A stretch of 56,965 nucleotides of DNA, taken from positions 1-56,965 of the forward strand of contig JAPLJZ010000147.1 of the NCBI GenBank assembly GCA_026388335.1, read 5' to 3'. Both the position numbers and the translations under genes were made by a program. Below are positions 5,805-52,430 of this stretch, piece by piece. A model generated the notes under the pieces. That model searched no databases. It was not told where the DNA came from and saw nothing but the letters and a program-made list of their open reading frames with translations. Each line of letters opens with the position of its first letter. The stretch's first letter is position 1. The DNA comes from Deltaproteobacteria bacterium (GTDB taxonomy: Bacteria; Desulfobacterota; Syntrophia; Syntrophales; UBA8958).

Positions 5805-7523
5805 GTGGATACCAATACCAATATCTTTGACCGGCGGTTATGGAAACGATTCTGGGAAATCGCCAGGATGTACTGGTTTTCCGAAGAGAAATGGCAGGCC
5901 AGGGGCGTCCTTGCCCTGCTGCTGATACTGCTTTTCGGTTTTACCGCCCTGAACGTGATCCTGAATTTTGTGGGCCGGGATTTCATGACCGCCCTGGCGG
6001 AAAAGAACCTGCCTGAATTCAACAAAGCCCTGCTCCTTTATCTGGGCGCATTTGTCGTGGCCACCCCGGTCAGCGTCTTTTATTCCTTTATCAGAAAAAA
6101 ACTGGGCATCAACTGGCGGCTGTGGCTGACCACCCATTTCCTGGGGAAATATTTTGCAAACCGGGCCTATTACCATATCAACGACGATAAAAACATCGAT
6201 AACCCCGATCAGCGTATTTCCCAGGATATTTCGTCTTTTACTGTCACCAGTCTGGGGTTTCTTTCCATCCTCTTTTTTTCCCTCGTCCAGCTAATCTCCT
6301 TTGTCGGGATTCTCTGGACCATTTCTATGACCCTGGTCCTGATCCTGGTGGCCTATGCCGTCATCGGCACGGTTGTTACCATGTTCTTCGGCAAGCGCTT
6401 GATAAACCTGAATTTCCAGCAATTACGACGGGAAGCCGATTTCCGTTACGGCCTGATCCATGTCCGGGATAACGTCGAATCCATCGCCTTTTACCGGGGC
6501 GAAGATCGGGAGAAGAATCAGGTCAAGGAGCGGCTGCGGGAGGCCATCGGCAATCTTAGGATGCTCATCGGCTGGGAGCGGAACCTGGAGTTCTTTACCA
6601 AGGGCTATGAATATCTCATCCTCGTCCTGCCCATTGTGGTGATGGCCCCCCTGTATTTTTCCGGTCAGATTAAATTCGGCGTCGTTACCCAGGCGGAGGG
6701 GGCCTTCGTGTCAGTGTTAGGCGCGCTTTCCATCATCGTCTCCCAATTTGAGCAACTCAGTAACTTCGCCGCCGGGATTACCCGTCTGGAGACCTTTGCC
6801 ACGGCCCTGGATCAGCCGACGGCAAAAGCGACTGCCGCAGCCCCCGTCATCGAGTCCCGGGAAGAATCCCGTCTGGCCCTGGAACATGTCACCCTGCAAA
6901 CCCCCAATTACCAGCAGACGCTCCTCCGGGATGCGACGGCGGAGGTCCCTCCGGGAAAGGGATTGCTCATCTCCGGAGCCAGTGGCGCCGGAAAGAGTTC
7001 GCTCCTGCGGGCCGTTGCCGGGCTCTGGAACGCCGGGGAAGGGCATATTTCCCGCCCGTCGTTGAAAGAGATGCTCTTTTTGCCCCAGCGCCCCTACATG
7101 GTCCTGGGGTCATTGCGGGAACAACTCCTCTATCCCCAGCTGGAGCAGGAGGCGACGGACGGCGAACTGCGGGAAATTCTGGGAAAGGTCAATCTGGCGG
7201 ATCTGCCGGAGAGGGTCGGCGGTTTCGATGCCGAACTGGACTGGGGGCATCTGCTCTCCCTAGGTGAACAGCAGCGCTTGGCCTTTGCGCGCCTACTCTT
7301 GAGCCGGCCCCATTACGCCGTTCTTGATGAGGCGACCAGTGCCCTCGATGTGGCCAATGAGGCACAGCTCTACGGTCAGCTCCAGGGATCGGGAACGACC
7401 TACGTCAGCGTCGGGCACCGGCCAAGCCTGCTTGCCTACCACGACAAAGTCTTGGAACTGCGGGGAGGGGGAGATTGGCGGCTTGTCCCCACGGCGGAAT
7501 TCAAGGTTGAATTGGCTCGTTAG
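5805..7523 (+). CDS. ABC exporter with fused permease and ATPase, SbmA/BacA-YddA type
   Basis: A 572-residue half-transporter. The permease half (about residues 1-340) opens with FDRRLWKRFWEIARMYW and contains FVGRDFMTALAEKN and NPDQRISQDI, hallmarks of the SbmA_BacA/peroxisomal-ABC-type fold. The ATPase half has a Walker A GASGAGKSSLLR (near residue 390), the signature LSLGEQQRLAFARLLL and a Walker B ending VLDEATSALD. It should dimerise in the inner membrane; relatives (YddA, BacA) handle peptides or very long-chain fatty acyl groups. The start is a GTG with AGAGGAGAA eight bases upstream. Its 3' third and the DNA just downstream recur as a decayed copy at 17875-18380, on the far side of the accessory island. 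Confidence 0.9.
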   Translation: MDTNTNIFDRRLWKRFWEIARMYWFSEEKWQARGVLALLLILLFGFTALNVILNFVGRDFMTALAEKNLPEFNKALLLYLGAFVVATPVSVFYSFIRKKLGINWRLWLTTHFLGKYFANRAYYHINDDKNIDNPDQRISQDISSFTVTSLGFLSILFFSLVQLISFVGILWTISMTLVLILVAYAVIGTVVTMFFGKRLINLNFQQLRREADFRYGLIHVRDNVESIAFYRGEDREKNQVKERLREAIGNLRMLIGWERNLEFFTKGYEYLILVLPIVVMAPLYFSGQIKFGVVTQAEGAFVSVLGALSIIVSQFEQLSNFAAGITRLETFATALDQPTAKATAAAPVIESREESRLALEHVTLQTPNYQQTLLRDATAEVPPGKGLLISGASGAGKSSLLRAVAGLWNAGEGHISRPSLKEMLFLPQRPYMVLGSLREQLLYPQLEQEATDGELREILGKVNLADLPERVGGFDAELDWGHLLSLGEQQRLAFARLLLSRPHYAVLDEATSALDVANEAQLYGQLQGSGTTYVSVGHRPSLLAYHDKVLELRGGGDWRLVPTAEFKVELAR

Positions 7524-7634
7524 TTGGAGGTCTTTTTATTGATCCCGAATGAAGGGGGAAAATGATTTCTATGGAAGACATGACTGATTGATCTGACGCT
7601 TACTTTCGCATGGACCGCTTGAATACGCTGCGCG
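7083..7634 (+). repeat. Left copy of segmental repeat (ABC gene 3' end plus flank)
   Basis: This segment, the last 440 bases of the ABC gene plus about 110 bases of downstream DNA, is repeated in direct orientation at 17875-18380. Similarity continues past the stop codon: ACTTTCGC..GACCG.TTGAATAC is present in both flanks (7601-7629 and 18350-18378). The two copies bracket about 10 kb of AT-richer DNA. Confidence 0.8.
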
Positions 7635-7638
7635 GACA

Positions 7639-8730
7639 TTAATCTGCCATGGAATACTTACTAATACGATAGACTGCTTTAGCTCTTGATATACCAAGCA
7701 TTTTTGCTGCACGAGTCATGTTGCCACCATTCAATTGTAAGGCTCGCTCCAGTAATATCCTATTTACTTTGTCAAGAGATATCCCTGATGCAGGCAAATC
7801 CATTACACCAGAATCTTTTTGAATAGATCCCCTTAAAGCTTCATTTAAAAGTTCAGGTGAACGAATAACGCCTGTATCGTGGTTTCTATTTTTAGCTATC
7901 AAAGTGTGCGTTAAGAAAGCAAGATGTTGCGGTCTAATCATCGATGTATCTTCCATCAAAGTAACCTTCTCAATCACATTTCTTAACTCCCTGATATTTC
8001 CCGGCCACAGGTAATTATGCAATATATCCTGAGCTTCTTTAGATATACATTTGAAATTTTTACCGAATTTTTTATTAAAGGTATCCATGAAGGTCAGCGC
8101 AATGGGAATAATATCTTCTTTTCTATCACGCAAAGCTGGTAGTGTAATCTTTATGACATTTAATCTGTAATATAAATCTTCTCTGAATACGCCCCTTTCT
8201 ACCTCTTCTTGAAGACTTTTATTTGTTGCTGCTATTACTCTTACATCTACCCTTGTCCTTTCCGTTCCTCCAACCCGGTAAAATTCTTTCTCTTCTAAAA
8301 CCCTGAGCAAATTTGCTTGGGCATCAGGCATGAGTTCAGTAATCTCATCTAGGAAAATGGTCCCATCATTAGCCATTTCAAACTTGCCAATTTTCCCATT
8401 TTGTAATCCACCGGTAAACGTACCTTTTTCATAGCCAAAAAGTTCACTCTCTAAAAGATCTTTATTGATAGCCCCACAATTCAAACATACATAAGGCTTT
8501 TGGCTTCTGTTACTGCAGTAGTGAATAATTTTTGCGAATAACTCTTTCCCTGTTCCAGTTTCTCCCTCAATAACCGTGGTTGTATCGTTACTTTTTGCGA
8601 CCTTATGGGCTATTCTTAACGCTTCCTTGATGCCTTCACTATGACCAATGACACGCACTTCTTTATTCGGGTAATACAAATCTTGCTTTGTGTATGTCAT
8701 GCTGTATATTCTTGACACACTTGCCTCCAT
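7639..8730 (-). CDS. Sigma-54-dependent transcriptional activator (AAA+ domain plus Fis-type HTH)
   Basis: A 363-residue bacterial enhancer-binding protein without an N-terminal sensor domain: the first 27 residues lead straight into the AAA+ core. Walker A is GETGTGKELF (residues 56-65), Walker B GTIFLDEI (123-130), and the C-terminal helix-turn-helix ends NGGNMTRAAKMLGISRAKA. The loop that contacts sigma-54, normally GAFTGA, reads GTFTGG (103-108). Its control may come from a partner protein, as for PspF-like activators. A near-consensus sigma-54 promoter stands before the CoA-transferase gene of the same island (17551-17565), so that gene is its best target candidate. The DNA is visibly richer in A+T than the flanking genes. 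Confidence 0.92.
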   Translation of the reverse strand: MEASVSRIYSMTYTKQDLYYPNKEVRVIGHSEGIKEALRIAHKVAKSNDTTTVIEGETGTGKELFAKIIHYCSNRSQKPYVCLNCGAINKDLLESELFGYEKGTFTGGLQNGKIGKFEMANDGTIFLDEITELMPDAQANLLRVLEEKEFYRVGGTERTRVDVRVIAATNKSLQEEVERGVFREDLYYRLNVIKITLPALRDRKEDIIPIALTFMDTFNKKFGKNFKCISKEAQDILHNYLWPGNIRELRNVIEKVTLMEDTSMIRPQHLAFLTHTLIAKNRNHDTGVIRSPELLNEALRGSIQKDSGVMDLPASGISLDKVNRILLERALQLNGGNMTRAAKMLGISRAKAVYRISKYSMAD

Positions 8731-9038
8731 GGCCGTTCTTCTCTTTTTTATATATCAGTATAGCTATACTTGTTCTAAGTCAATATTAAATAATATTATC
8801 ATGAAAAGTATAATATATGTATATATAAGCAAGGCGGCTGTCAAGCACGTACCGGAAAACCAGTTTGCACATATTCTCGGCTGGCTGAACATGGATCTGC
8901 TCAGGGAGCAGGAAATAGATATGGCAATCGAAATGGCAGGGGCAATCTGAAATCAAAAAGGCGTTCATTATCAATGAACCATACTGAATAGAGGAAATAG
9001 TAACTATGTAAAAAAAACGCTACTCGGGGGTGGCTTTA
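8731..9038. other. AT-rich intergenic stretch between sigma-54 activator and PAS-LuxR gene
   Basis: This holds the promoter region of the sigma-54 activator and the 3' flank of the PAS-LuxR gene. A short less AT-rich patch (about 8828-8950, plus strand) encodes a protein-like tail containing VPENQFAHILGWLNMDLLRE before a stop; it has no start codon or ribosome site and may be a gene remnant that I cannot identify. No sigma-54 promoter or terminator hairpin is convincing. Confidence 0.4.
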
Positions 9039-10748
9039 TCACATCGATTGAAGTGATAAGAGATAAGCTTTGAGATTCTCGATTCTTTTCAAACCGAGTT
9101 TTTTTCTTAAGCGGCATCTGTAAATATTGATGGCACTTTCTGTTATATTTAAAAGATCTGCCATTTCTTTTGATGATTTTCCCTCTCTTATCAAGTCGGC
9201 AACTCTCACCTCTCTATTTGTAAGATTAGAATATTTATCGGATAACTTATGACCAAACGGAGAAATGATATTTCTCAAATTTGATTCGAGTATTTTGAGA
9301 TTGGTTGTGCTTCCGGCGTCGAGCTGTTTCTTTTTTAACTCATCTATATAAGGCAAAACGAGCTCTCTAACATTTTTTAAAATCTTATCTTCAAGCTCTC
9401 TTTTGTCCTCATCTCCTCGTTTCAGCAGTACCTTCAATGCGGTATTGAGTTCCTCAAGTTCGTTCTTATTGATTTCCAAATCTCGTTCTCTTTTCTTTAA
9501 CGCATCCTCCGCCATTTTTCTATCAGTAATATCACGAATTACCTCTATGGCACCGCTAATATTGCCCTTGCTATCATAGAGCGGACTTGCTTTACACCAG
9601 AGATAAGCGTTTCCTCCCATCACGCCAATACTCGGGATTTCTGCCTCAACGATTAAGAGATTCTCTCCTCTTTTAAAGACAGAATAAGTGTCCTCGGATG
9701 TCTCATCCGGCTCAATCACCAGATTAATTGCCATAGGTCTTCGGAATTTCCAGAAAGGCATGGCATATTCATAGTCCCCCTTTCCGAGTATGTCTTGTGA
9801 TTTAACCCCGGTCAGCTCTTCCGCAGCACGGTTCCACGCGATAAGCTTACCCTCTATATTAATAGCAAAAGTTGCATCTGGTAAAAACTCAATAATCTCA
9901 GCCAATCGCTGTTGCGAATCTCGTAAAGCTTGCTCGGCTCGTTTGATTTCCGTGATATCTTCAAAGGTTGCAACTATTCTCTTCCCTTCGGTTAATCTCT
10001 CCCCTATCCTGGCAACACTCATACGACAGATGATTTCCCTACCGTCTTTGCGAATAAATGGAAACTGCCATTCAAATATATAGCAATCTTGTTTTTCCAT
10101 TTCGGAGTATAATAACTTTCCATAATCTAGCCATTCCTGATCGGACCTGAATAAAATTCTTGTGCTCTTGCCGATTAATTCATCTTTTGACCAGCCAAAG
10201 ACGATTTCCATTGAATCATTAGCAAAAAAAATCCGGCGATTTTCAACTCCAAAAAATGCATGAGGAACTGAGGTAAGGATGGAGGCCTCAAGCTTTTCCA
10301 GTTGCTCCAACTTGTCCCGTGCTTCTTTAACATCGGTAATTTCCATTGTATTACCAAGAACAGCACGTTTACCTTTATGCTGAACAGAAGACACTGATTC
10401 CAGCAACCACTTCACGTTTCCGTTTTTATCAATAATTCTGAATTCATATGGTACCTGGTGAAGTCCTTTTAGCATTGCAATAGCTTTTTCACGAACATCT
10501 TGCCGATCTTCCGGATGAACAAAGCTCGAGATATCTGCTCCCAGCACTTCTTTCATTGAATAACCAGAATATTTCGTAATATGCTGGTTCGCAAATTTTA
10601 TTTTCTTATCCTGAACAACGTACACACCGATTTGTAAGTTGTTAGCTATTATTTCATAGAAGAAATTCTTCTCCCGGACGCTGGATTTATTTCCCTCACG
10701 AACTGGTTCGATCGTTGAAATATTTTTATTCCAATCTCCATGTTTCAT
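9039..10748 (-). CDS. Triple-PAS sensory regulator with LuxR-type HTH output
   Basis: A 569-residue soluble one-component regulator. Three PAS domains follow one another (about 25-145, 155-275 and 280-415), each ending with a PAC-type segment (MEITDVKEARD, FEDITEIKRAE, IRDITDRKMAE). Then comes a coiled-coil linker with ELNTALKVLLKRGDED and LVLPYIDEL, and a C-terminal LuxR helix-turn-helix, LTNREVRVADLIREGKSSKE onward. The same linker plus HTH occurs in the 311-residue protein at 21978-22913, so this is a paralogous architecture. The PAS ligands are unknown; the neighbouring acyl-CoA genes suggest a metabolic signal, which is inference. The IS701 element sits 43 bases upstream of its start and may disturb its promoter. 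Confidence 0.9.
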   Translation of the reverse strand: MKHGDWNKNISTIEPVREGNKSSVREKNFFYEIIANNLQIGVYVVQDKKIKFANQHITKYSGYSMKEVLGADISSFVHPEDRQDVREKAIAMLKGLHQVPYEFRIIDKNGNVKWLLESVSSVQHKGKRAVLGNTMEITDVKEARDKLEQLEKLEASILTSVPHAFFGVENRRIFFANDSMEIVFGWSKDELIGKSTRILFRSDQEWLDYGKLLYSEMEKQDCYIFEWQFPFIRKDGREIICRMSVARIGERLTEGKRIVATFEDITEIKRAEQALRDSQQRLAEIIEFLPDATFAINIEGKLIAWNRAAEELTGVKSQDILGKGDYEYAMPFWKFRRPMAINLVIEPDETSEDTYSVFKRGENLLIVEAEIPSIGVMGGNAYLWCKASPLYDSKGNISGAIEVIRDITDRKMAEDALKKRERDLEINKNELEELNTALKVLLKRGDEDKRELEDKILKNVRELVLPYIDELKKKQLDAGSTTNLKILESNLRNIISPFGHKLSDKYSNLTNREVRVADLIREGKSSKEMADLLNITESAINIYRCRLRKKLGLKRIENLKAYLLSLQSM

Positions 10749-10791
10749 TCCTGATTCCTCATTCCTTTTGGGATAAAAAATTATGAAAGAT

Positions 10792-12270
10792 TACCACTAC
10801 AACGCCGGTTAGTAGACTTATGATTTATCATGGTGTATACTCCGGGAAAATTCTGGGAGGTGCACCGTGATGGAAAACGATCTGAGAGACTTGATGCCAC
10901 AATTAGAGATTTTTCACAAACGATTTCATAGTTTCTTTTGCCGTTCCGAAGGCAGACAGTGGAGCAGGAAGTACCTGATCGGTTTGTTGTTGCCTATTGA
11001 TCGGAAGAACGTCGAGAACATTGCGGAGGAAGTTGGCGCACCACCTCGGAAACTCCAGGAGTTTTTGAGTGATTCGCCCTGGGATGATGAAGGATGTATC
11101 GAGGAGCATCAGCGCTTTGTGGGAGAGCTTCTTGGCGCTCCAAACGGCGTTGTAATTTTTGATGATATGGGTTTCCCCAAGAAAGGTGACAAGTCTGCGG
11201 GAGTGGGAAGACAGTATTCTGGCACCATGGGCAAGACAGACAACTGTCAGGTTGGTGCTTTCATGTCTTACGCCTCCGCTCACGGCCATACCCTTGTGGA
11301 TAGGCGGTTGTATATCATGTCACAGTGGTTTGAAGATGCCGCAAAGGAGAGAAAAAAGCGAGCGGCTATACCTTCTGATGTCAAGTTCAAGACCAAGATC
11401 GAACTGGCTCTGGAGATGCTGGACAAAGCTCATAAGTCGGGGAATTTGTTGTTTCAATGGGTCAGTGGGGATGGCATCTATGGCGATGCCCATGAGTTTC
11501 GGAAGTTTGTCAATGACATGGGGAAGTGGTACTGCTTCGAGGTACATTGTAACACCCATGTCTGGACGGATGACCCAGTTTGGGAAGTGCCGGTGGTTCC
11601 GGAAAAAAGACGAGGGCGAAAGCCGAAACTTCTGAAACCAACAGAAAAATCTCCGACTGCGGTAATGGCCTCGTCTCTTGTTGCTTCTATTCCGGAAAGT
11701 AAGTGGCAGCGTATCTGTCTCCGGGAAGGGGACAAGGGGCCCAGAGAATTTGACTTTGCCCGTCTGCGGGTTATCGAAAAGTGGAATGGAAAACCGGGAC
11801 CAGCCTCCTGGCTGATGATCAGAAGATCCTTGGTGACAGACGAAAAGGAAATCAAATTCTATCGTTCCAATGCCCCGGAGACCATCTCCCTTGATGAGAT
11901 GGCTTGGGCGGGATGCCAGCGCTGGAGTATCGAAGTGGATTTTAAACTGGCCAAGGGGGAAGCAGGTCTTGATCATTACGAGCTGACGAAATACCGGGGC
12001 TGGTATCATCACATCACCTTATCAATGCTTGCCCTTGCCTTTCTGAAAGCTGTGCAGCGGCAATGGAAAAAAAAAGAATGTGTTGGCTACTGTGCCTGAG
12101 ATTCGGCGGTTCTTGGAAGTGGTTCTTCCGAGAATCACCTGGAACCCCCAGGGTGTTATCGCCTGGCTCATGAAGCAGAGGCAGAACAAAGAAAAATCCC
12201 AGAAGTCCCATACAAAAAATGGCGAGAGAAATATTCCAAGTGACCCATCATAACCGGCGTTGTAATGGTA
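10792..12270 (+). mobile_element. IS701-family insertion sequence (complete, 1479 bp)
   Basis: The ends are a 20-bp terminal inverted repeat. The left end (10792-10811) reads TACCACTACAACGCCGGTTA and the complement of the right end (12251-12270) reads TACCATTACAACGCCGGTTA, one mismatch. Between them lies a single transposase gene. The stop codon of the frame-corrected transposase falls on the first bases of the right repeat. I see no clear target duplication in the four to eight flanking bases. The size fits the family. Confidence 0.88.
10867..12099 (+). CDS. IS701-family DDE transposase, frameshifted near its C-terminus
   Basis: The transposase cuts and joins DNA at the element ends. The three acidic residues are visible: the Asp in GVVIFDDMGFPKKG, the Asp in SGDGIYGD and the Glu in RWSIEVDFKLAKGE. 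The frame stops at 12099 just after a run of nine A (12067-12075). If the run had eight A, the frame would go on through VLATVPEIRRFLEVVLPRIT to a stop at 12251-12253 inside the right inverted repeat, giving about 462 residues. So either one base was gained (mutation or assembly error) or expression relies on slippage at the A run. Start: the ATG at 10870 or the GTG at 10867, both behind GGGAGGTGC. Confidence 0.88.
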   Translation: MMENDLRDLMPQLEIFHKRFHSFFCRSEGRQWSRKYLIGLLLPIDRKNVENIAEEVGAPPRKLQEFLSDSPWDDEGCIEEHQRFVGELLGAPNGVVIFDDMGFPKKGDKSAGVGRQYSGTMGKTDNCQVGAFMSYASAHGHTLVDRRLYIMSQWFEDAAKERKKRAAIPSDVKFKTKIELALEMLDKAHKSGNLLFQWVSGDGIYGDAHEFRKFVNDMGKWYCFEVHCNTHVWTDDPVWEVPVVPEKRRGRKPKLLKPTEKSPTAVMASSLVASIPESKWQRICLREGDKGPREFDFARLRVIEKWNGKPGPASWLMIRRSLVTDEKEIKFYRSNAPETISLDEMAWAGCQRWSIEVDFKLAKGEAGLDHYELTKYRGWYHHITLSMLALAFLKAVQRQWKKKECVGYCA

Positions 12271-12623
12271 TGCACAATCTACGTTAAACCGCTCTCTCGC
12301 CACCGCCGAACCTGGTCCTCCCATTAGCTCCGCTTTTCAGCCCTATTCGCCTGCCATTGTGTCATCGAATTCCTCCTCAAATCTTTTGGAGAGATCCTTG
12401 ACATATTTTTATAACACTGTGAAGATGGGGTTAATTAGACGCTTACCGACGACGGGCGATGCTGCTACGCGGCCTGAACCAGGGCGGCTCATCACTTACA
12501 ACCTGCTTCCGGTTATCCGAAGAACCCTGACAACCTCTGTTGTCAAGAAAATAGGGGAAACGGATTTTCTTGAATGTTGGTGTTATTGGAAAGGTATTAA
12601 TAGCGTTGAGCGAGGGGGTTTGT
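12271..12623. other. Non-coding stretch right of the IS element
   Basis: No gene is supported here. The only long frame (12359-12712, plus) has no ribosome site and runs antisense into the CoA-transferase/GNAT gene. Base composition is mixed and the stretch may be remnant DNA displaced by the insertion sequence. Confidence 0.4.
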
Positions 12624-14477
12624 TTAACACTGGTCTAATCGGAACGAAAAACTATAGGTTTGTAAGCCCTCATCGATCATCAATGAATGACGCGGAGCTA
12701 CTTTTTCCATGACTCTGATCATGGCTTTATTGGTCGTCAGGATATGGGCGTTGAATCCTTCAATATTATGCTTATTTGCAATTTTAACCAACATATTGAG
12801 AATAAAAGTTGCGATGCCGGTGTCCTGGCACTTTTCATCGACTATAAACGAAACATCCGCATAAGATGTGTATCCCAAACTGACATAACGTCCTTCTGCA
12901 ATTATCTTTTCCATTCCTCCGAGGGCTATGGTACCCACAATCGACATCGTTTGGCGATAATCCACGCAGATATATTCCTGCATATGTTTGTGGGGCATTT
13001 CCTGAACATTGCTGAAGAAACGATAAAAAATACCTTTATCAGAAAACCGATAGAAGAGTCGTCTCATGCCATCTTCATCCGATGGCTTTATCGGACGGAA
13101 ATGGATGACTATGTTGTTCTCAAAAGTATGGGTTAATGAAATATCTTCTGGATAATTTCGAGCATACTCCGAAATATATTTCTGATTCTGATAAATTAAC
13201 TTCAATTTCTTTGCCGCTTGTACAAGTTGATCCCGGTCATCCGGGTGTGAAATATCAATCAGAGCCATGGTTCTTTCCCGCAGCGATCTGCCGTTAAGGC
13301 GGGCTATGCCGTATTCTGTAACGACTACATTGATCAACTCACTGGAAAACTGGTTCGGATAACTTTCAACAGAGGGAAGGATATTTGGTTCTCCTCTTAA
13401 GTTTCGGCTTGGGAGTGCAAAAATATTGCACCCTCCATCCGATAAAGCTGCACCGGTGAGAAATTCATAAAAGTCACTCGGACCTGTCACAATGTTTCCC
13501 CGACCTGCATAGGGTGCAATGGCACCGGAAATATCTACTTTATATGCCGGCATAATGACAACAACACGATCGTTTTGAGAAATGTTTTTTGGATTGACAA
13601 CAACATCGATTCTTTGAAATTCTACGAGTTGATTACCATCCAACCAATTCATCAGTTCGGGGGTACCCTGAGCATAAGCGGATACACTTTTCCCGGTAAA
13701 TAAATTCTTATTTTTGTTTGAGATAGCCGGGCTATTCATCAGATCCATCAAGGGATCTGTGAAAACAAGCGAATGTATTCCCAGATCCTTCTTGCCGTAA
13801 AGATGCTTAACAAGCGCCTCATAGAGAGGTCCCAGAAAAAAAGAAAGACAGCTTCCATTTTCTATGACAGATGCCGTGTACTCCGCCACGCGGTTAAATG
13901 TTTCATCAAAAGGCCATCTCGAAATATAAAACAGAGGTTCAGTCGCTTTGATTAGGTAATGAAAATCTTTGATGTGTACGAAAGTATCGCCGAATGTATA
14001 TGGGACCTGCTCATTGATTTCACCCACAACCAGGTTAGCTCGTTCAATGGCGGGCTTCGCAACATCAACGGATACGCCCAGACTGCATAATCCTCTCCTG
14101 TCAGGAGGCGTGATCTGGACAAATGCTGCATCAACCTTTACGGCATCCGTGCTGAAAAGGTGGGGTATTTGAGATAACACGCAAGGAATCCAATCGATCT
14201 GTCCGGCAGTGATAGCATTGTAACCTTTCGTCATGGAGAAGAATGTTTTTAGCCGGTATTTGTCGGCATATCGTTCATCCGGAGGTATCGCATCGCCAAT
14301 ACTCAAGAGCTGAATGATCTCCAGATCTTTAAGATTACTTAGCTCGGATTCCATGAGGTGTTTTATCAGCGTGCGAGGTTCGGCAACGCCGGTCCCGACA
14401 AAGATGCTCATTCCCGGTTTGATCTTCGATAGCACTACCTCTGGATCAACAATCTTATTTGTCCATTCCTCAGCCAT
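12624..14477 (-). CDS. Acetyl-CoA hydrolase/CoA-transferase fused to a GNAT acetyltransferase domain
   Basis: A two-part protein of 617 residues. Residues 1 to about 430 belong to the acetyl-CoA hydrolase/4-hydroxybutyrate CoA-transferase family (VGEINEQVPYTFGDTFV; near the end VVTEYGIARLNGRSLRERTM and then IDISHP). The last 165 residues are a GNAT domain (FRPIKPSDEDGMRRLFYRFS and the acetyl-CoA-binding-type stretch FIVDEKCQDTGIATFILNML). One half would move CoA between acids; the other would transfer an acyl group, perhaps to a lysine. I start at 14477 because GGAGATCTAAAA precedes that ATG; the frame to 14516 lacks a site. The next gene upstream on the strand is a deacetylase-family gene 254 bases away, and a family III CoA-transferase lies beyond it. 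The fusion is known in anaerobes; its partner here is unknown. Confidence 0.88.
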   Translation of the reverse strand: MAEEWTNKIVDPEVVLSKIKPGMSIFVGTGVAEPRTLIKHLMESELSNLKDLEIIQLLSIGDAIPPDERYADKYRLKTFFSMTKGYNAITAGQIDWIPCVLSQIPHLFSTDAVKVDAAFVQITPPDRRGLCSLGVSVDVAKPAIERANLVVGEINEQVPYTFGDTFVHIKDFHYLIKATEPLFYISRWPFDETFNRVAEYTASVIENGSCLSFFLGPLYEALVKHLYGKKDLGIHSLVFTDPLMDLMNSPAISNKNKNLFTGKSVSAYAQGTPELMNWLDGNQLVEFQRIDVVVNPKNISQNDRVVVIMPAYKVDISGAIAPYAGRGNIVTGPSDFYEFLTGAALSDGGCNIFALPSRNLRGEPNILPSVESYPNQFSSELINVVVTEYGIARLNGRSLRERTMALIDISHPDDRDQLVQAAKKLKLIYQNQKYISEYARNYPEDISLTHTFENNIVIHFRPIKPSDEDGMRRLFYRFSDKGIFYRFFSNVQEMPHKHMQEYICVDYRQTMSIVGTIALGGMEKIIAEGRYVSLGYTSYADVSFIVDEKCQDTGIATFILNMLVKIANKHNIEGFNAHILTTNKAMIRVMEKVAPRHSLMIDEGLQTYSFSFRLDQC

Positions 14478-14731
14478 TTTTAGATCTCCATCCTGGATTT
14501 CGATTCGGTACGTCATCGAAAGTCGGATTATTTGAACGAGTATGAATCTGTTAACTTGACATAATCATACCTTCCTTATAAATATTCGTCAAGTGCGGAA
14601 CAACTGTTCATATGAAGAGTGTAACCGAAAATATAGGAAACGCTATGTGGCAACAGTTATAATGATTAGATTTAAGGAATCAGTCCTGATACGATCCGAT
14701 GGATTTGTCTGACTTCGAAGTCTCAGGCATT

Positions 14732-15490
14732 TTACGGGTGACCTTTTTGTTGTTGGTGCATGCCCTCAATCAATGCCATAACATTGTAACCAATAATCTT
14801 GTGATTATATCCTCCTTCCATAATGGCAAAATATCCGGATTTCTTTTTTTCTCCTGTCGTCTTGACGAGCTGCCCAATAGCTTTGTAATCCTCCGTTGCG
14901 AGTAGACCACCCCAGTCTTCTTTATGCGTATCGAAACCTGCCGAAATTCCGATAATATCGAAATTATCATTCAAACTATCTTTAATATCACAAAGATAAG
15001 ACTCAACATCGCGGGTACGCGGGTTACAAACATCGGTATAACCTTTAACTCCCAGGATATTCACTGTTCCGTCGCCGAAATGATAATCGATGTCTAACAC
15101 CAGGGCCCGCTTGATCTTCCCTTCTTCTTTCAATTTTGTAATAGAAATCGCCATGTTGTTAAAATAACAATATCCCCAGGAACTATCGCCAGAGGCATGG
15201 TGCCCCGGAGGTCTCACTAAAGCGAAACATGGTTCTTCCAGTCCAATAGTCGCTGCCTGAATAGCCGCACCTGCAGCTAGTGCCGAGATTTCGTAAAGTC
15301 CAAGGCTTGTTACATGTTCGATGTATGCTTTTGTGTGGCAGGCAGCGATATCTTCGTAATTAGCCGGAGATGCTTCCACCCAATCAACATGATCTTTAAT
15401 GACATCTAAAACAGCATCTATTCGACCATCTGCTGCGGCTGGATCACCATTATATGATGATCTGAAGGTGTCATGAAAAACAACTTTCAT
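14732..15490 (-). CDS. Histone deacetylase-family (class II/acetylpolyamine-type) deacetylase
   Basis: A 252-residue zinc hydrolase of the arginase/deacetylase fold. The metal and catalytic residues are present: RPPGHHASG (paired His), DIDYHFGDGT (Asp and His ligands), SAGFDTHKEDWGG (third metal Asp region) and the EGGYN tyrosine. It should remove acetyl or other acyl groups from lysine side chains or polyamines in the cytoplasm. I start at the ATG at 15490 since AGAGG lies eight bases before; the ATG at 15511 would add seven residues. It is shorter than the 300-340 residues of many relatives. It sits between a CoA-transferase/GNAT fusion and a family III CoA-transferase, pairing a possible acyl writer with an eraser. 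Confidence 0.88.
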   Translation of the reverse strand: MKVVFHDTFRSSYNGDPAAADGRIDAVLDVIKDHVDWVEASPANYEDIAACHTKAYIEHVTSLGLYEISALAAGAAIQAATIGLEEPCFALVRPPGHHASGDSSWGYCYFNNMAISITKLKEEGKIKRALVLDIDYHFGDGTVNILGVKGYTDVCNPRTRDVESYLCDIKDSLNDNFDIIGISAGFDTHKEDWGGLLATEDYKAIGQLVKTTGEKKKSGYFAIMEGGYNHKIIGYNVMALIEGMHQQQKGHP

Positions 15491-16122
15491 CTTTTCAGCC
15501 TCTATTTTCATATCGCAAACTATAGTTTCTTAACCATTATGGTTTGGAGTGGAGGTTGGTGTATTCGGATAAGTTATATAATGCGTTTTCCACTATCGAT
15601 ATTCTATCCCCCCCCTTTTCAACCAGACAGATCATGGTAGTGCATATTCACAAGAGACATGCCAATGCAATCGGGGGTACATGCAAAACACGTCTGCCAT
15701 ATGGTAATAACCAAACCATATTTTATGACATTGACGGGATATGAACAAAAAGGACAGATGATATTTCCTGAAAACATAAGAAATGCTAACCCTACATACT
15801 GCCGGCTCAGCTGCCCAGCATTTGTTTAAAAATGAGGTTAAAGAGTCAGTCGAGGAGGTTCAATTCACGTCCGACCTTTTAACCTCTCACAGCAACGGTT
15901 AACACGGTGCACCCAACAGCCACAATAACCGGTTACAATAAATAGCCGTTGCACAGAGCATGCGCCCATTATGGCAATGAACACAGAGTGGGAGGTTTTT
16001 CTGCTAATGCAACAGCTATTTTATCCCCTGTTTTCCCCCTTATTCGATACACAAAGTGGAGTGAGAGACCGGGATGGCGATCTCGGTCTCTCAGTTAGCA
16101 TGACAAAATTATTTCTCTACAG
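15491..16122. other. Non-coding 0.6 kb between the deacetylase and the CoA-transferase
   Basis: No convincing gene. Two hairpins can be drawn. GAGGTTAAA (15834-15842) pairs with TTTAACCTC (15878-15886) across a 35-base loop, and GAGAGACCG (16063-16071) pairs with CGGTCTCTC (16084-16092), listed separately. The rest is AT-rich with a run of eight or nine C near 15611. The stretch is long enough for the 5' control region of the deacetylase gene. Confidence 0.45.
16063..16092 (-). terminator. Hairpin downstream of family III CoA-transferase
   Basis: A nine-base perfect stem, GAGAGACCG / CGGTCTCTC, with a 12-base loop, starting 31 bases after the CoA-transferase stop on the minus strand. No U run follows, so it may be a transcript-end or stability hairpin rather than a classic intrinsic terminator. 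Confidence 0.5.
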
Positions 16123-17493
16123 TTACACAGGTTCGCAGGCCGCTTCCGTGCAGGGTTCCGTCTGGTGGACGATCCCTTTATCGAAGTATTCTTGGATTTG
16201 ATTCTTTGAGAATCCGAACATCTTGTCCAAGATGTGTGACGTATCTTCTCCAATTGCCGGGGCTCCTCTCCAGACCTGTCCTGGTGTCAAAGACATCTTC
16301 GGAATCACGCCACTTACCCGAATGGGGACGCCGGATTGGCGATCAAGAACAGGTACATGGGATTCCCTTAAATTGAAGTGTTCTTCATTGAGCATGTCCA
16401 TTGCATTCATAACACGGCAGCATCCAATCTGAGCCGCGTTGATCGCCTTTTCGACTTCCATTCGCGGCCGGCTGGTGCAATATTCTCTCAGTTTTCGATC
16501 AAGCTCCAAACCTTTCTCCGAATTCACGGCAGCAGCATCCTGAGAGCATGCCTCATAGCTATATTCAACGGGATCTAACCCAAGGAATTTTGGCACTCTT
16601 GGATAAATGGCCGGCCCCAAAGCGCCGATCCAGACATATCCGTCCTTGCACATGAATGTATCGTAAGGCTGAAAACCGGGTGCCTTGTTGCCGGTGTGTC
16701 CGCTGAACTTACCTTCCCCCGTAACGTAGGGCATCTGAAATCCCTGCGTGGCAAGGACACTCTCGAACTGGGAGCAATCTATGACCTGTCCCCGCCCCGT
16801 TTTCTGTACTTCCATAAGTCCCATGAGCACTGCCGCCCAGCCGTGGAGAGCTGTCAAATAATCTGCGGTATAAACTTTAGCGCGCTGGGGAGGTCCTTTG
16901 GGGTCGCCGGTTACGGCTATCATTCCACCATAAGCCTGTCCAAGTGCATCGTATCCGGGCCTGCCGAGCATATCTTCTGATCCGAATTGCCCATACGTGC
17001 TCACCCTCAAAATGACGAGCTTGGGATTGACGGCAAGGGCCAACTCGGAGGATATTCCCGACCGCTCGATTGTTCCGGGCGCGGAGGATTCCATCCAGAC
17101 ATCTGATATCTTCCAAAGCGCCATTAGAAGTTCAAGCCCTTTGGGATCTTTAAAGTTTAATCCCATTGAAAGACGGCAGACAGCTTCGTTCGCCCAGTCA
17201 CAACCGTGTGGCCTTTTCCCTCTCGTGAGATTCGGTGCAGTTTTCCTGTGAATATCGCCACCGTGTCTTTCAACATGAATCATTTCTGCGCCGAACATAG
17301 CCATCTTTGTACCTGCATAAGGTTGAGCTATGACAATCCCTGAACTAACCACCCTTATTCCTTGCAGAGGGCCAAATGTGGGTGCCATCAAAGGCGTCTC
17401 CGGTCTCTTAAGATTCTTAATCCACTCCGGAATACTTGCCTTCAATTTTTCAATTTGTTTTTCGTCTTTTAAAATACGCTTGTCATGTTCCAT
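16123..17493 (-). CDS. Family III CoA-transferase (CaiB/BaiF type)
   Basis: A 456-residue CoA-transferase that moves CoA between carboxylic acids through an acyl-aspartate intermediate. The core reads GPLQGIRVVSSGIVIAQPYA, MFGAEMIHVER, and TADYLTALHGWAAVL whose Asp211 matches the catalytic Asp of the family; RRFDE-type insertions are absent. The 40-residue N-terminal extension before the CaiB domain is unusual. A strong ribosome site, AAGGAGGAAAGA, touches the ATG. A sigma-54 promoter (17551-17565) lies 58 bases upstream and a hairpin follows the stop, so it is likely a single-gene transcription unit switched by an enhancer-binding protein. The substrate is unknown; carnitine, bile acid, benzylsuccinate and oxalate enzymes are all in this family. 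Confidence 0.9.
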   Translation of the reverse strand: MEHDKRILKDEKQIEKLKASIPEWIKNLKRPETPLMAPTFGPLQGIRVVSSGIVIAQPYAGTKMAMFGAEMIHVERHGGDIHRKTAPNLTRGKRPHGCDWANEAVCRLSMGLNFKDPKGLELLMALWKISDVWMESSAPGTIERSGISSELALAVNPKLVILRVSTYGQFGSEDMLGRPGYDALGQAYGGMIAVTGDPKGPPQRAKVYTADYLTALHGWAAVLMGLMEVQKTGRGQVIDCSQFESVLATQGFQMPYVTGEGKFSGHTGNKAPGFQPYDTFMCKDGYVWIGALGPAIYPRVPKFLGLDPVEYSYEACSQDAAAVNSEKGLELDRKLREYCTSRPRMEVEKAINAAQIGCCRVMNAMDMLNEEHFNLRESHVPVLDRQSGVPIRVSGVIPKMSLTPGQVWRGAPAIGEDTSHILDKMFGFSKNQIQEYFDKGIVHQTEPCTEAACEPV

Positions 17494-17550
17494 TCTTTCC
17501 TCCTTAAGTTATAAGTATTAGTGAACTCGGCGATTTGATTTCTGAACATC

Positions 17551-17565
17551 GCAACGATTGTGCCA
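17551..17565 (-). promoter_or_regulatory. Sigma-54 (-24/-12) promoter of the family III CoA-transferase
   Basis: On the minus strand the sequence is TGGCAC-AATCG-TTGC, with GG and GC ten bases apart. It matches the sigma-54 consensus TGGCAC-N5-TTGC exactly. The predicted transcript starts near 17540, giving a leader of about 47 bases to the ATG at 17493. A sigma-54 activator gene is in the same island (7639-8730). Confidence 0.82.
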
Positions 17566-17874: not shown

Positions 17875-18322
17875 CCCCAGCGCCCCTATATGGTACCCTG
17901 GGGTCATTGCGGGAACAACTCCTCTATCCTAATCTGGAGCAGGAGGCGACGGACGACGAACTCAGGGCTGTTCTGGAAAAGGTCAATCTGGCGGATCTGC
18001 CGGAGAGGGTCGGCGGCTTTAACGCCGAGCTGGACCGGGGGCATCTGCTGTCCCTTGGTGAACAGCAGCGCCTGGCCTTTGCGCGACTGCTCTTGACCCG
18101 GCCCGGCCCCATTATGCCGTCTTCGACGAGGCGACCAGCGCCCTCGATGTGACCAACGAGGCCCAGCTCTACGGGCAGCTCCAGGGATCAGGAACGACCT
18201 ATGTCAGCGTCGGGCACCGGCCAAGCCTGCTTGCCTACCACGACCATGTCCTGGAACTGCGGGGAGGCGGAAACTGGCGGCTCGTACCCACGGCGGAATT
18301 CCAGGCCTCATTGTCTCATTAA
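17875..18322 (+). pseudogene. Decayed 3' fragment of a second SbmA/YddA-type ABC transporter gene
   Basis: This matches the C-terminal 146 residues of the ABC gene ending at 7523, very closely by eye. Shared blocks include LGSLREQLLYP, KVNLADLPERVGGF, HLLSLGEQQRLAFARLLL and, in another frame, SVGHRPSLLAYHD. The copy has at least two length changes, an extra AC near 17900 and an extra CGGCC near 18105, that break the frame. Most single-base differences between the copies are at third codon positions, for example in the stretch coding DEATSALDV. The copy therefore seems to have evolved as a working gene before it decayed. It ends with a TAA at 18320-18322. The 5' two thirds, including Walker A, are absent. 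Confidence 0.85.
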
Positions 18323-18380
18323 GCGAGACGTGACTGAGGGATCCGCCGCTCACTTTCGCGCTGACCGTTTGAATACCGAC
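17875..18380 (+). repeat. Right copy of the segmental repeat bracketing the island
   Basis: Direct-orientation partner of 7083-7634. It includes the pseudogene plus about 58 bases of shared downstream flank; about 50 bases just after the stop are missing relative to the left copy. Similarity begins abruptly at CCCCAGCGCCCCTA and ends near TTGAATAC. Confidence 0.8.
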
Positions 18381-50132: not shown

Positions 50133-52430
50133 TCAGACAATAAGAAAAGACAAGAGAATCAATACACTGACAATCTGGACGGGAATATCGAGTCCCGCCG
50201 CCGGAATGAGGAGCAGTCCCCCGAGGAGCGCTCCTGATCCGCCGCCGATAAGATCGGCGGCGTAGAGCGGGGAGATCAGGGAATGCCGATCTGTGGTGTC
50301 GGTAAGGGTGGCGTAGGCAAAGAGGGCGCCGACAAAAAAACCGGAAAAGGCAAGGAGGCAGGCCATGAGAAGCAAGCCGGTGCCGCCATCCCGGATGAGG
50401 ACAAAGTAGATAAGTATTGTCAGAGCGAAAAATCCCCCCAACAGCCCCCCGCCCCAGCGCCGATCAGGAAGGGAAAGGCAGCGTGGCAGAACGATGGCGC
50501 CCAAGGCCATTCCGGCCATGAAGCACGCGATCAGCAGGCCGATGTCCTGGTAAAGGGCGCCGTCTTTGACCTGGTAATGAAGGAGCAGGACATTCTGAAG
50601 GATCATCCCGCAAAAGCCGGCCATGCCCGCCAGGAATACCCGCTTGATTAATGGGTGGGATCGGGCCAGGAAGAAAGCCCCGGCCATGACTGCCAAGGAA
50701 AACAGGACGGCAGGCAGGAGCAGGGTGACGTCATGGAAAGAAGCACGGGGGAAAAACTTGGACAACCAGATCTGGAGCGTGTACCGGTAACAGACAGGCC
50801 GGATGTCGCTGTTGGCGAAAATGACGGTTGTCTGCAGGATCTTTCTGATCTCCTGAAACCGGTCGTTGCTAAAGAGATAGTTGATGAACGGCGGCCTCAC
50901 CAGGCGGGCGGAAATCTGACGGAACTGCCAGCGCTCGATAAGCGGCGCCGCGTCTTCGGCAAGGGGAGTTGGAGAGGCGGTGACAATGTTTGTTGCTCCC
51001 GGCAGGAAGAGGACGTGGGGGAAAACTGATTTTAACGCCCCGTAGATGCTGGTCATGCGGTACATCAGGGGCGGGGGCCAGATGTTTTCGGCCGAACGGA
51101 GCCGCAATCCCATGACGCCTCCGGGACGGAGCCGAGCGGCGCAGGTCTGGAAAAACTCCCGGGTGTAGAAGCGGTTTGCCTGTCCCGACGCCGGGTCCGG
51201 CATGGCTACGAGGATCAGATCATAGGCGTCGCTGTGACGTAAAAAATCACGAGGATCGGCAAAAATCAAACGGACCGGTGGGGTGTTCAGTGTACTCTGT
51301 CGCTGTGGGGGCATATGCCGTGAGACCATCCGGACCATTCTTGAGTTGAGTTCCACCACATCTATCTTCTCTACCGGATGCTGCCGTAGTGCCTCCACCA
51401 GCCCTTCCGTTCCCCCGCCCAGCAACAGAACCTTACGGGGATGGGGATGTTGCAGCGCAGTCAGGTGGGCAAAGGTTTCTCCTTCCGTGCCTTCCGTTTC
51501 AAAAGACAAAACGTCGTTTTCAAAGACCGCCGCCTGGCCGGATAGACCGGTAACGGTAATCCGCCCGTACGCTGTATCCTGACTTTCCACCAGGTGGGGA
51601 TGATTCCATCCGATCGTCTTTCGATCCAGCCAGGACGTCCAGTTGAGGACGATGAGGCAGCATACGGCTATGATAGTGGCCAGCCACAAAGTCCTGAGAC
51701 CTTTGAAAAATTCCAATTCAGTCTCCCTATCGTCATTCCGGCGAAGGCCGGAATCCAGTATTTTCAAGTCATCACTGGATTCCGGGTCAAGCCCGGAATG
51801 ACAGAAGGGGGTGTTTTTCAAAGGTCTCGACCTTTTTGTTTTCCTCAGGAAGATCAGAGGGATCAAGGCGATAAAAATACTACCGAGCAGGGTCGCGGCT
51901 AAAACCGGGATGTCAAATTTCAGAAAGAGGGTGGAAAGGATTCCTCCCGCCAGGGCGCCGAGACTTTCGATACCGTAGGCTAGAGCCAAGGTCCTTTGAG
52001 AGGTTTGAATTTTGTCATTACCCTCCCTTTCTTTGTCCGGCTTTTCGTGGATAAAAATCGTAGCGGCCAGAGGGAAAAGAAAACCCGTCAGCAATCCGAT
52101 GGGAAAAAGAGCCAGTACCGGGAGGAGTAGTTGTTGATAAAATGGCAAATAAGCCCCGGGAACGCCTGCAAATAACAGCCGACTGCCACGGATGAAGAGG
52201 ACGTCCAGAGGGAGGAGGATGGCGAGACATAGAAAAGCGAAGGTCATGGCTCCAGCCGTGGCTACGCGATAGCGACTGATCATGGCCCCGGCGGCAGTGA
52301 AGAAAAGCCATACGCCCAGCGAGAAAAGATAAATCAATTCCACGCCATAGAAGGCTACGGAAAGCTCCCGGAGGAGAATAACCTGGCTCAGGAGGGAGAT
52401 GAGGCCGATATTGAATAGGATTAACTGCAT
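50133..52430 (-). CDS. Spermidine-synthase-like polytopic membrane protein with in-frame repeat insertion
   Basis: A 765-residue protein: about seven hydrophobic segments, a soluble aminopropyltransferase/methyltransferase-like domain (about 290-540; VLLLGGGTEGLVEALRQHP, IDVVELNSRMVRM, FADPRDFLRHSDAYDLILVA), and about seven more hydrophobic segments. This spermine-synthase-like fused architecture is common and of unknown reaction. Between the last helix of the first membrane part and the next helix, residues about 201-245 are encoded by a 133-bp palindromic element; they read CHSGLDPESSDDLKILDSGL and RRNDD. The frame stays open through it. The ATG at 52430 has no strong ribosome site. Confidence 0.88.
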   Translation of the reverse strand: MQLILFNIGLISLLSQVILLRELSVAFYGVELIYLFSLGVWLFFTAAGAMISRYRVATAGAMTFAFLCLAILLPLDVLFIRGSRLLFAGVPGAYLPFYQQLLLPVLALFPIGLLTGFLFPLAATIFIHEKPDKEREGNDKIQTSQRTLALAYGIESLGALAGGILSTLFLKFDIPVLAATLLGSIFIALIPLIFLRKTKRSRPLKNTPFCHSGLDPESSDDLKILDSGLRRNDDRETELEFFKGLRTLWLATIIAVCCLIVLNWTSWLDRKTIGWNHPHLVESQDTAYGRITVTGLSGQAAVFENDVLSFETEGTEGETFAHLTALQHPHPRKVLLLGGGTEGLVEALRQHPVEKIDVVELNSRMVRMVSRHMPPQRQSTLNTPPVRLIFADPRDFLRHSDAYDLILVAMPDPASGQANRFYTREFFQTCAARLRPGGVMGLRLRSAENIWPPPLMYRMTSIYGALKSVFPHVLFLPGATNIVTASPTPLAEDAAPLIERWQFRQISARLVRPPFINYLFSNDRFQEIRKILQTTVIFANSDIRPVCYRYTLQIWLSKFFPRASFHDVTLLLPAVLFSLAVMAGAFFLARSHPLIKRVFLAGMAGFCGMILQNVLLLHYQVKDGALYQDIGLLIACFMAGMALGAIVLPRCLSLPDRRWGGGLLGGFFALTILIYFVLIRDGGTGLLLMACLLAFSGFFVGALFAYATLTDTTDRHSLISPLYAADLIGGGSGALLGGLLLIPAAGLDIPVQIVSVLILLSFLIV
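51696..51828. repeat. MITE-like palindromic element inside the membrane-protein gene
   Basis: The ends are a perfect 15-bp inverted repeat: GAGACCTTTGAAAAA (51696-51710) and TTTTTCAAAGGTCTC (51814-51828). Inside is the nested core TTCCGGCGAAGGCCGGAATC, spacer, and GGATTCCGGGTCAAGCCCGG (51731-51803). The same core, with different ends, occurs at 31721-31790. No target duplication is clear. Confidence 0.8.

Follow-up and report, generated by a model that had tools for sequence, protein, structure and literature searches.

Three genes on one strand, between positions 12624 and 17493 of a 56,965-nucleotide stretch (contig JAPLJZ010000147.1, hereafter the window), encode a CaiB-type family III CoA-transferase, a short HDAC-family deacylase and a fusion of a CoA-transferase-like domain with a GNAT domain. 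The window belongs to an assembly of an anaerobic Deltaproteobacteria bacterium of the Syntrophales (GCA_026388335.1; 4.06 Mb, 268 contigs). The block is tentatively read here, with a probability of about 0.42, as a horizontally acquired module for the reversible acylation of acyl-CoA enzymes, among them most likely the CaiB-type CoA-transferase that it encodes. In this reading, the fusion, through its Pat-like GNAT half, would move acyl groups from acyl-CoA onto lysines of such enzymes, the simplest target being the co-encoded CaiB-type protein, in the way that AcuA and AcuC act on AcsA, and the short HDAC-family enzyme would clear these groups. The dead CoA-transferase half may have a part in regulation, sensing or oligomerisation, like the dead acyl-CoA synthetase half of Pat/PatZ, while PAS-LuxR and sigma-54 regulators encoded nearby would turn the module on.

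17493-16123, minus strand: CaiB-type family III CoA-transferase (456 amino acids; Pfam CoA_transf_3, 1e-89)
15511-14732, minus strand: short HDAC-family deacylase (259 amino acids; Pfam Hist_deacetyl, 4e-34)
14516-12624, minus strand: pseudo-CoA-transferase–GNAT fusion (630 amino acids; Pfam AcetylCoA_hydro, AcetylCoA_hyd_C and GNAT domains)

The open reading frame coordinates agree with an earlier, sequence-only reading of this DNA, which had placed the three genes on one strand, and Pfam and PDB matches uphold the family that it had assigned to each. Intergenic gaps of 611 bp (CaiB/HDAC) and 215 bp (HDAC/fusion) led to the rejection of a tight operon, so that the term gene block is used.

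A four-gene set in two families

Genome G040, from another family of the order, carries a PAS-LuxR regulator gene, then the CaiB-type (76% identity), HDAC-family (65%) and fusion (62%) genes, in this order and on one strand. The window holds a counterpart of this regulator:

9039-10748, minus strand: PAS(x3)-LuxR-type regulator, 75% identical to the regulator upstream of the G040 module

In the window, this gene lies on the far side of the fusion, beyond an IS701-family transposase gene, whereas that of G040 precedes the module. In trees of sequences sampled by similarity to the window proteins, the HDACs of the window and G040 are sisters (96/92), as are the fusions (100/100), and these pairs stand apart from the other copies of the same two genomes where such copies were included. 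Given this sister placement of both HDAC and fusion, the members of the PAS-LuxR/CaiB/HDAC/fusion set have apparently been inherited together.

The neighbourhood singled out by the sequence-only reading is thus conserved, with the same order and strand, in one other genome of a different family, but it is rare, with linkage in two of the 155 genomes of the class, a soft count since assembly-based genomes may be incomplete. The idea that the block is a general feature of syntrophs was rejected on this count. It could also be supposed that the genes are passengers, brought together on an island by chance and functionally unrelated, which we consider rather unlikely. Linkage in two genomes only, the wide gaps, the IS701 element in the middle and the frequency of fusion and HDAC as separate chromosomal genes in the class all suit a chance association; on the other hand, CaiB, HDAC and fusion, at 62-76% identity, are arranged alike and on one strand in a genome of another family that also has a PAS-LuxR gene, and the sister relationships of HDAC and fusion speak for four genes held together over a long divergence.

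Taken singly, the components differ in their distribution. Short-HDAC orthologs are found in 110 of the 155 class genomes, and the fusion lineage in about 70% of them and elsewhere in the phylum. Both are present in 87 genomes, one or the other alone in 23 and 23, and neither in 22, a co-occurrence mildly above chance (Fisher p 8e-4) that ignores phylogeny and genome completeness and is not used as evidence. CaiB orthologs occur in 4/155 genomes. A scan of a collection of 84,980 species (one genome each), which can miss relatives, gave 14 CaiB loci, many of them on short contigs, with HDAC and fusion only at that of G040.

The fusion protein and the short deacylase

13197-14474, minus strand: CoA-transferase-like domain of the fusion (residues ~15-440), L250 replacing AbfT E238, QxGhG loop and Gln337 lost
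12627-13136, minus strand: GNAT domain of the fusion (residues ~461-627), Pat-like, with the pyrophosphate loop QDTGIA (564-569) and Asp554

Residues ~15-440 of the fusion are homologous from end to end with 4-hydroxybutyrate CoA-transferases (2e-77 to PDB 9vag; also 3gk7, AbfT). In AbfT (PDB 3gk7), Glu238 is the active-site residue, whereas Ile216, Gln337 and the Gly215-Ile219 loop handle CoA (PMC11659651). Equivalents read by counting along the printed alignment with AbfT put Leu250 of the window protein at the Glu238 site, and Ser225, Phe227, Asp348 and Phe349 at Gln213, Gly215, Gly336 and Gln337. The fusion of a CoA-transferase with a GNAT domain announced by the sequence-only reading therefore stands as far as family homology and the GNAT domain go, but its CoA-transferase half has neither catalytic Glu nor CoA loop. 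The CoA-thioester flux expected through this half finds no support, as the residues for catalysis are gone.

Fifty-six fusion proteins collected from the order were sorted on two criteria, identity to the window protein and the residue found at the Glu site, into lineage A (n=33, including the window protein), its sister lineage B, in which Glu is kept (n=17), and a remainder of 6. Lineage A is recovered as a clade (support 100/99). The equivalents of Glu238, Gln213, Gly215, Gly336 and Gln337 are all lost in 33/33 lineage-A proteins of the class and, in a separate later check, in 20/20 extra lineage-A fusions from other parts of the phylum, which makes 53/53 in total. Lineage B keeps Glu, Gln213, Gly215 and Gly336 in 17/17 proteins, and Gln337 in 11/17. 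At the Glu site, lineage A shows a range of residues (P, F, L, V, I, Y, T, Q, G), while all of its members in the class share an Arg-Asn pair after ALPS. The AlphaFold model of the fusion has a mean predicted local distance difference test score (pLDDT) of 86, most of both domains being confident. The relation to the AbfT/Cat1 group (4-hydroxybutyrate and butyryl-CoA:acetate CoA-transferases) thus covers the whole domain, but the catalytic Glu, the QxGhG loop and Gln337 are missing throughout lineage A.

From these residues, the CoA-transferase half looks like a pseudoenzyme, and an active bifunctional CoA-transferase is disfavoured by the loss of all five. An activity independent of the Glu, for example by an intramolecular mechanism that would leave the fusion bifunctional, appears very improbable. 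Indeed, ThnP works as an intramolecular CoA-transferase without the conserved active-site Glu (PMC11659651), but in lineage A the equivalents of the CoA-binding loop and Gln337 have gone as well, in 53/53 proteins, and so variable a residue at the Glu site is ill-suited to catalysis.

The closest matches of the GNAT half are the protein lysine acetyltransferases Pat and PatZ. The acetyl-CoA pyrophosphate loop (Q-x-x-G-x-A), whose absence would have counted against the proposal of the sequence-only reading, is intact at 564-569, as judged on sequence and alignment, and Gly567 is present in 53/53 lineage-A fusions. The general-base site of the GNAT carries Asp in 33/33 lineage-A proteins of the class; outside the class, it carries Asp in 16/20 and Glu in 4/20. 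With five residues lost from one half and the GNAT loop intact, selection appears to have maintained the GNAT, leaving the other half a non-catalytic role. Pat contains an inactive acyl-CoA synthetase domain thought to sense acetyl-CoA (PMC8556138); by analogy, the dead half is more likely to be a regulatory, sensing or scaffolding domain than a catalyst. The fusion resembles type I lysine acetyltransferases (Pat/PatZ/YfiQ) in that a Pat-like C-terminal GNAT follows a dead CoA-enzyme domain, but this domain is an AbfT-like family I CoA-transferase rather than an NDP-forming acyl-CoA synthetase, and Asp stands at the general-base site. Its architecture would also fit a type III acetyltransferase, with an N-terminal ligand-binding regulatory domain and a C-terminal GNAT. 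A term search of two reviews of bacterial acetyltransferases returned nothing on CoA-transferase.

The source genome encodes six fusions, three of lineage A, two with Glu and one with Gln at the site. The third of the lineage-A proteins (L018 1340-3130) has a CoA-transferase half shorter by ~35 residues (window residues ~93-126), which fits a non-catalytic half. Chromosomal lineage-A fusions stand beside trigger factor in several genomes (L017, L107, L110, L114, L047; in L017 also clpX), and others adjoin purB (L018, L046, L105, L109, L113).

The second component, described by the sequence-only reading as a deacetylase with all metal ligands, indeed has D142, H144 and D194, plus H104/H105 and Y235, all invariant among 35 short-HDAC sequences. 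It shares the HH pair, D-x-H, D and Tyr with classical Zn-dependent deacylases (AcuC, HdaH, ApaH) but differs from them in the stretch between motifs and in the number of core strands. Thus, 40-41 residues separate GDGT from SAGFD in 34/35 short HDACs; two full-length homologs from the source genome have 75 and 77. The absent ~35 residues correspond to the 'VLYFSTHQYPAYPGSG' strand and loop (beta5 strand, YPGTG tunnel loop), and the model (pLDDT 92) has seven core strands, counted from its secondary structure, instead of eight. In HDAC8, the region missing here supplies the tunnel Phe and part of the potassium site, which makes a wider active site plausible in the short enzyme. At three loci in different genomes, a gene of the same cluster, of the Sir2 family in one, lies within a few kb of a chromosomal short HDAC; the Sir2 gene is a hint that the short-HDAC lineage acts in protein deacylation. 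Chromosomal short-HDAC orthologs are also seen near a Sir2-family gene and an rnpA-yidC-jag-mnmE cluster in several genomes (L022 8068-8808, 10792-11586; L057; L059).

The candidate target and known systems

The CaiB-type protein matches PF02515 over its full length (1e-89), and its D211 aligns with the catalytic Asp169 of CaiB. CaiB, the L-carnitine CoA-transferase, is its best PDB and NCBIfam match, and the family III sequence and aligned catalytic Asp are common to both, but the window protein scores 234 bits against an NCBIfam cut-off of 413 and has an N-terminal extension, which is common to its close relatives.

The nearest precedent for the whole block is acuABC–acsA of Bacillus subtilis, in which AcuA (GNAT) and AcuC (HDAC) are encoded beside AcsA, the acid-activating enzyme on which they act (PMC13121692). 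The two systems are alike in the placement of GNAT and HDAC-family deacylase genes beside an acid-activating enzyme, with reversible control demonstrated in B. subtilis. They differ in that the putative target is a family III CoA-transferase and not an AMP-forming synthetase, that the GNAT is fused to a pseudo-CoA-transferase, and that the module sits on an island. Neither an AcuB-type gene nor an AMP-forming synthetase was found among the island genes. By analogy with acuABC and Pat, reversible acylation of a protein by a writer/eraser pair, as proposed by the sequence-only reading, is the best fit: the module is best read as a mobile, acuABC-like writer/eraser, probably with the CaiB-type CoA-transferase or other acyl-CoA enzymes as its target.

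In a syntroph, acyl-lysines are abundant on acyl-CoA enzymes, CoA-transferases included (PMC9676460). Syntrophic bacteria carry many acyl-lysines, for which the GNAT lineage offers a concrete candidate writer; the matching eraser could be the short HDAC. Both lie on the island beside one acyl-CoA enzyme, so that writer, eraser and target are testable together with three purified proteins. A bolder version, which we hold to be doubtful, would make the island a mobile self-contained switch, in which a new class of lysine acyltransferase, with a dead CoA-transferase as sensor of acyl-CoA or acid, and a trimmed HDAC control a family III CoA-transferase. We know of no reversible-acylation control of family III CoA-transferases, and such a portable switch, if real, would go some way towards accounting for why syntrophic bacteria are so rich in acyl-lysines.

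A serious rival, although unlikely, is a catabolic cassette in which an HDAC-like amide hydrolase frees a carboxylic acid or an amine and the CaiB-type enzyme adds CoA to the acid, the fusion being incidental or modifying an intermediate. The HDAC family includes polyamine and amide hydrolases (PMC11532494). In genome G026 (L053 1987-4427), the closest CaiB ortholog (81% identity) is followed on the same strand by an amidase of the choloylglycine-hydrolase family, where the contig ends. The window itself offers a near-perfect sigma-54 promoter before CaiB, catabolic-style regulators on the island, and enoyl-CoA hydratase and OYE genes beside it. However, the G026 amidase has an apparent signal peptide (by inspection), which argues against a simple replacement of the HDAC, in G040 the module comes with CaiB as its sole acyl-CoA enzyme and with neither a dehydrogenase nor a thiolase, and a cassette leaves the conserved GNAT with its pseudo-CoA-transferase domain unexplained.

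Several observations weigh against the reversible-acylation module. The wide gaps (611 and 215 bp) leave co-transcription of the block unsupported, and the genes are linked in only 2/155 class genomes, fusion and HDAC being unlinked elsewhere. CaiB relatives elsewhere stand without HDAC or fusion, and the different amide hydrolase that follows CaiB in G026 suits a catabolic role. As for the enzymes, the short HDAC lacks a strand and a loop found in canonical enzymes, and the fusion has Asp554 where mycobacterial Pat has its catalytic (general-base) Glu.

The genomic island and its regulators

5805-7523, plus strand: ABC transporter gene, with the left island boundary at its 3' end
7639-8730, minus strand: island-borne sigma-54 activator that lacks a receiver domain, with a GTFTGG variant of the GAFTGA motif
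10867-12099, plus strand: IS701-family transposase, between regulator and fusion, with terminal inverted repeats near 10791-10811 and 12250-12271
17550-17565, minus strand: sigma-54-type promoter TGGCAC-N5-TTGC (TGGCACAATCGTTGC), near-perfect, 57-72 bp upstream of the CaiB start
17875-18325, plus strand: displaced, frameshifted 3' end of the ABC gene, at the right boundary; a direct repeat 87% identical to 7083-7522

The three-gene block sits on an inserted DNA island, read here as horizontally acquired. This AT-rich island of ~10 kb comprises the sigma-54 activator, the PAS-LuxR gene, IS701 and the three block genes, with a G+C content of 0.39-0.45 over 7503-10760 and 12300-17500, against 0.51-0.54 outside. 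Two congeners, G002 and G003, show the empty site: there, the sequence found in the window from ~19640 adjoins the ABC gene directly. The last bases of the displaced fragment are closer to the native gene end of G002 than those of the intact ABC gene of the window, as would result if an incoming element supplied a new 3' end to the gene and displaced the old one. The island showed no integrase gene, and neither the Rfam nor the tRNA scan of the window gave a hit, which leaves no tRNA attachment site. Carriage by a phage, plasmid or virus was rejected, since no plasmid record covered 80% of the fusion and viral contigs held distant HDACs only. Of the enoyl-CoA hydratase and OYE genes that adjoin the island, the former (18769) is also missing at the congener site, yet is not counted as island because it lies outside the repeat and has an ordinary G+C content.

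The predicted promoter before CaiB is the top-scoring such site on either strand of the window; as 1.5 one-mismatch sites are expected by chance per window, its weight rests on place and orientation. No sigma-54 site was found upstream of CaiB in G040 or G026, and no sigma-54 activator among the neighbouring genes checked in G040. A conserved sigma-54 promoter was thus rejected, and sigma-54 control would be specific to the island of the window.

The PAS-LuxR regulator bears on a further serious rival, quite improbable in our view, in which the genes serve a small-molecule signal: the GNAT would acylate an amine, the HDAC would deacylate it, and the acyl-amine would be the PAS-LuxR ligand. A precedent exists in anaerobic benzoate degradation, where BadL makes acetamidobenzoates that are ligands of BadM (PMC6191541). 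PAS-LuxR is conserved in the module, and similar genes lie beside CoA-transferases elsewhere in the source genome, but the GNAT matches Pat-group protein acetyltransferases and the island has no aminobenzoate or similar pathway genes. The additional source-genome places where PAS-LuxR regulators adjoin stand-alone CoA-transferase genes are two (L135 5326-8531; L136 4394-7363), as if these genes recurred as local CoA-transferase regulators.

Farther along, the window encodes a 765-amino-acid protein whose central domain is spermine-synthase-like (50133-52430) and a 760-amino-acid CHAT-domain protein with TPR repeats (53574-55856, minus strand).

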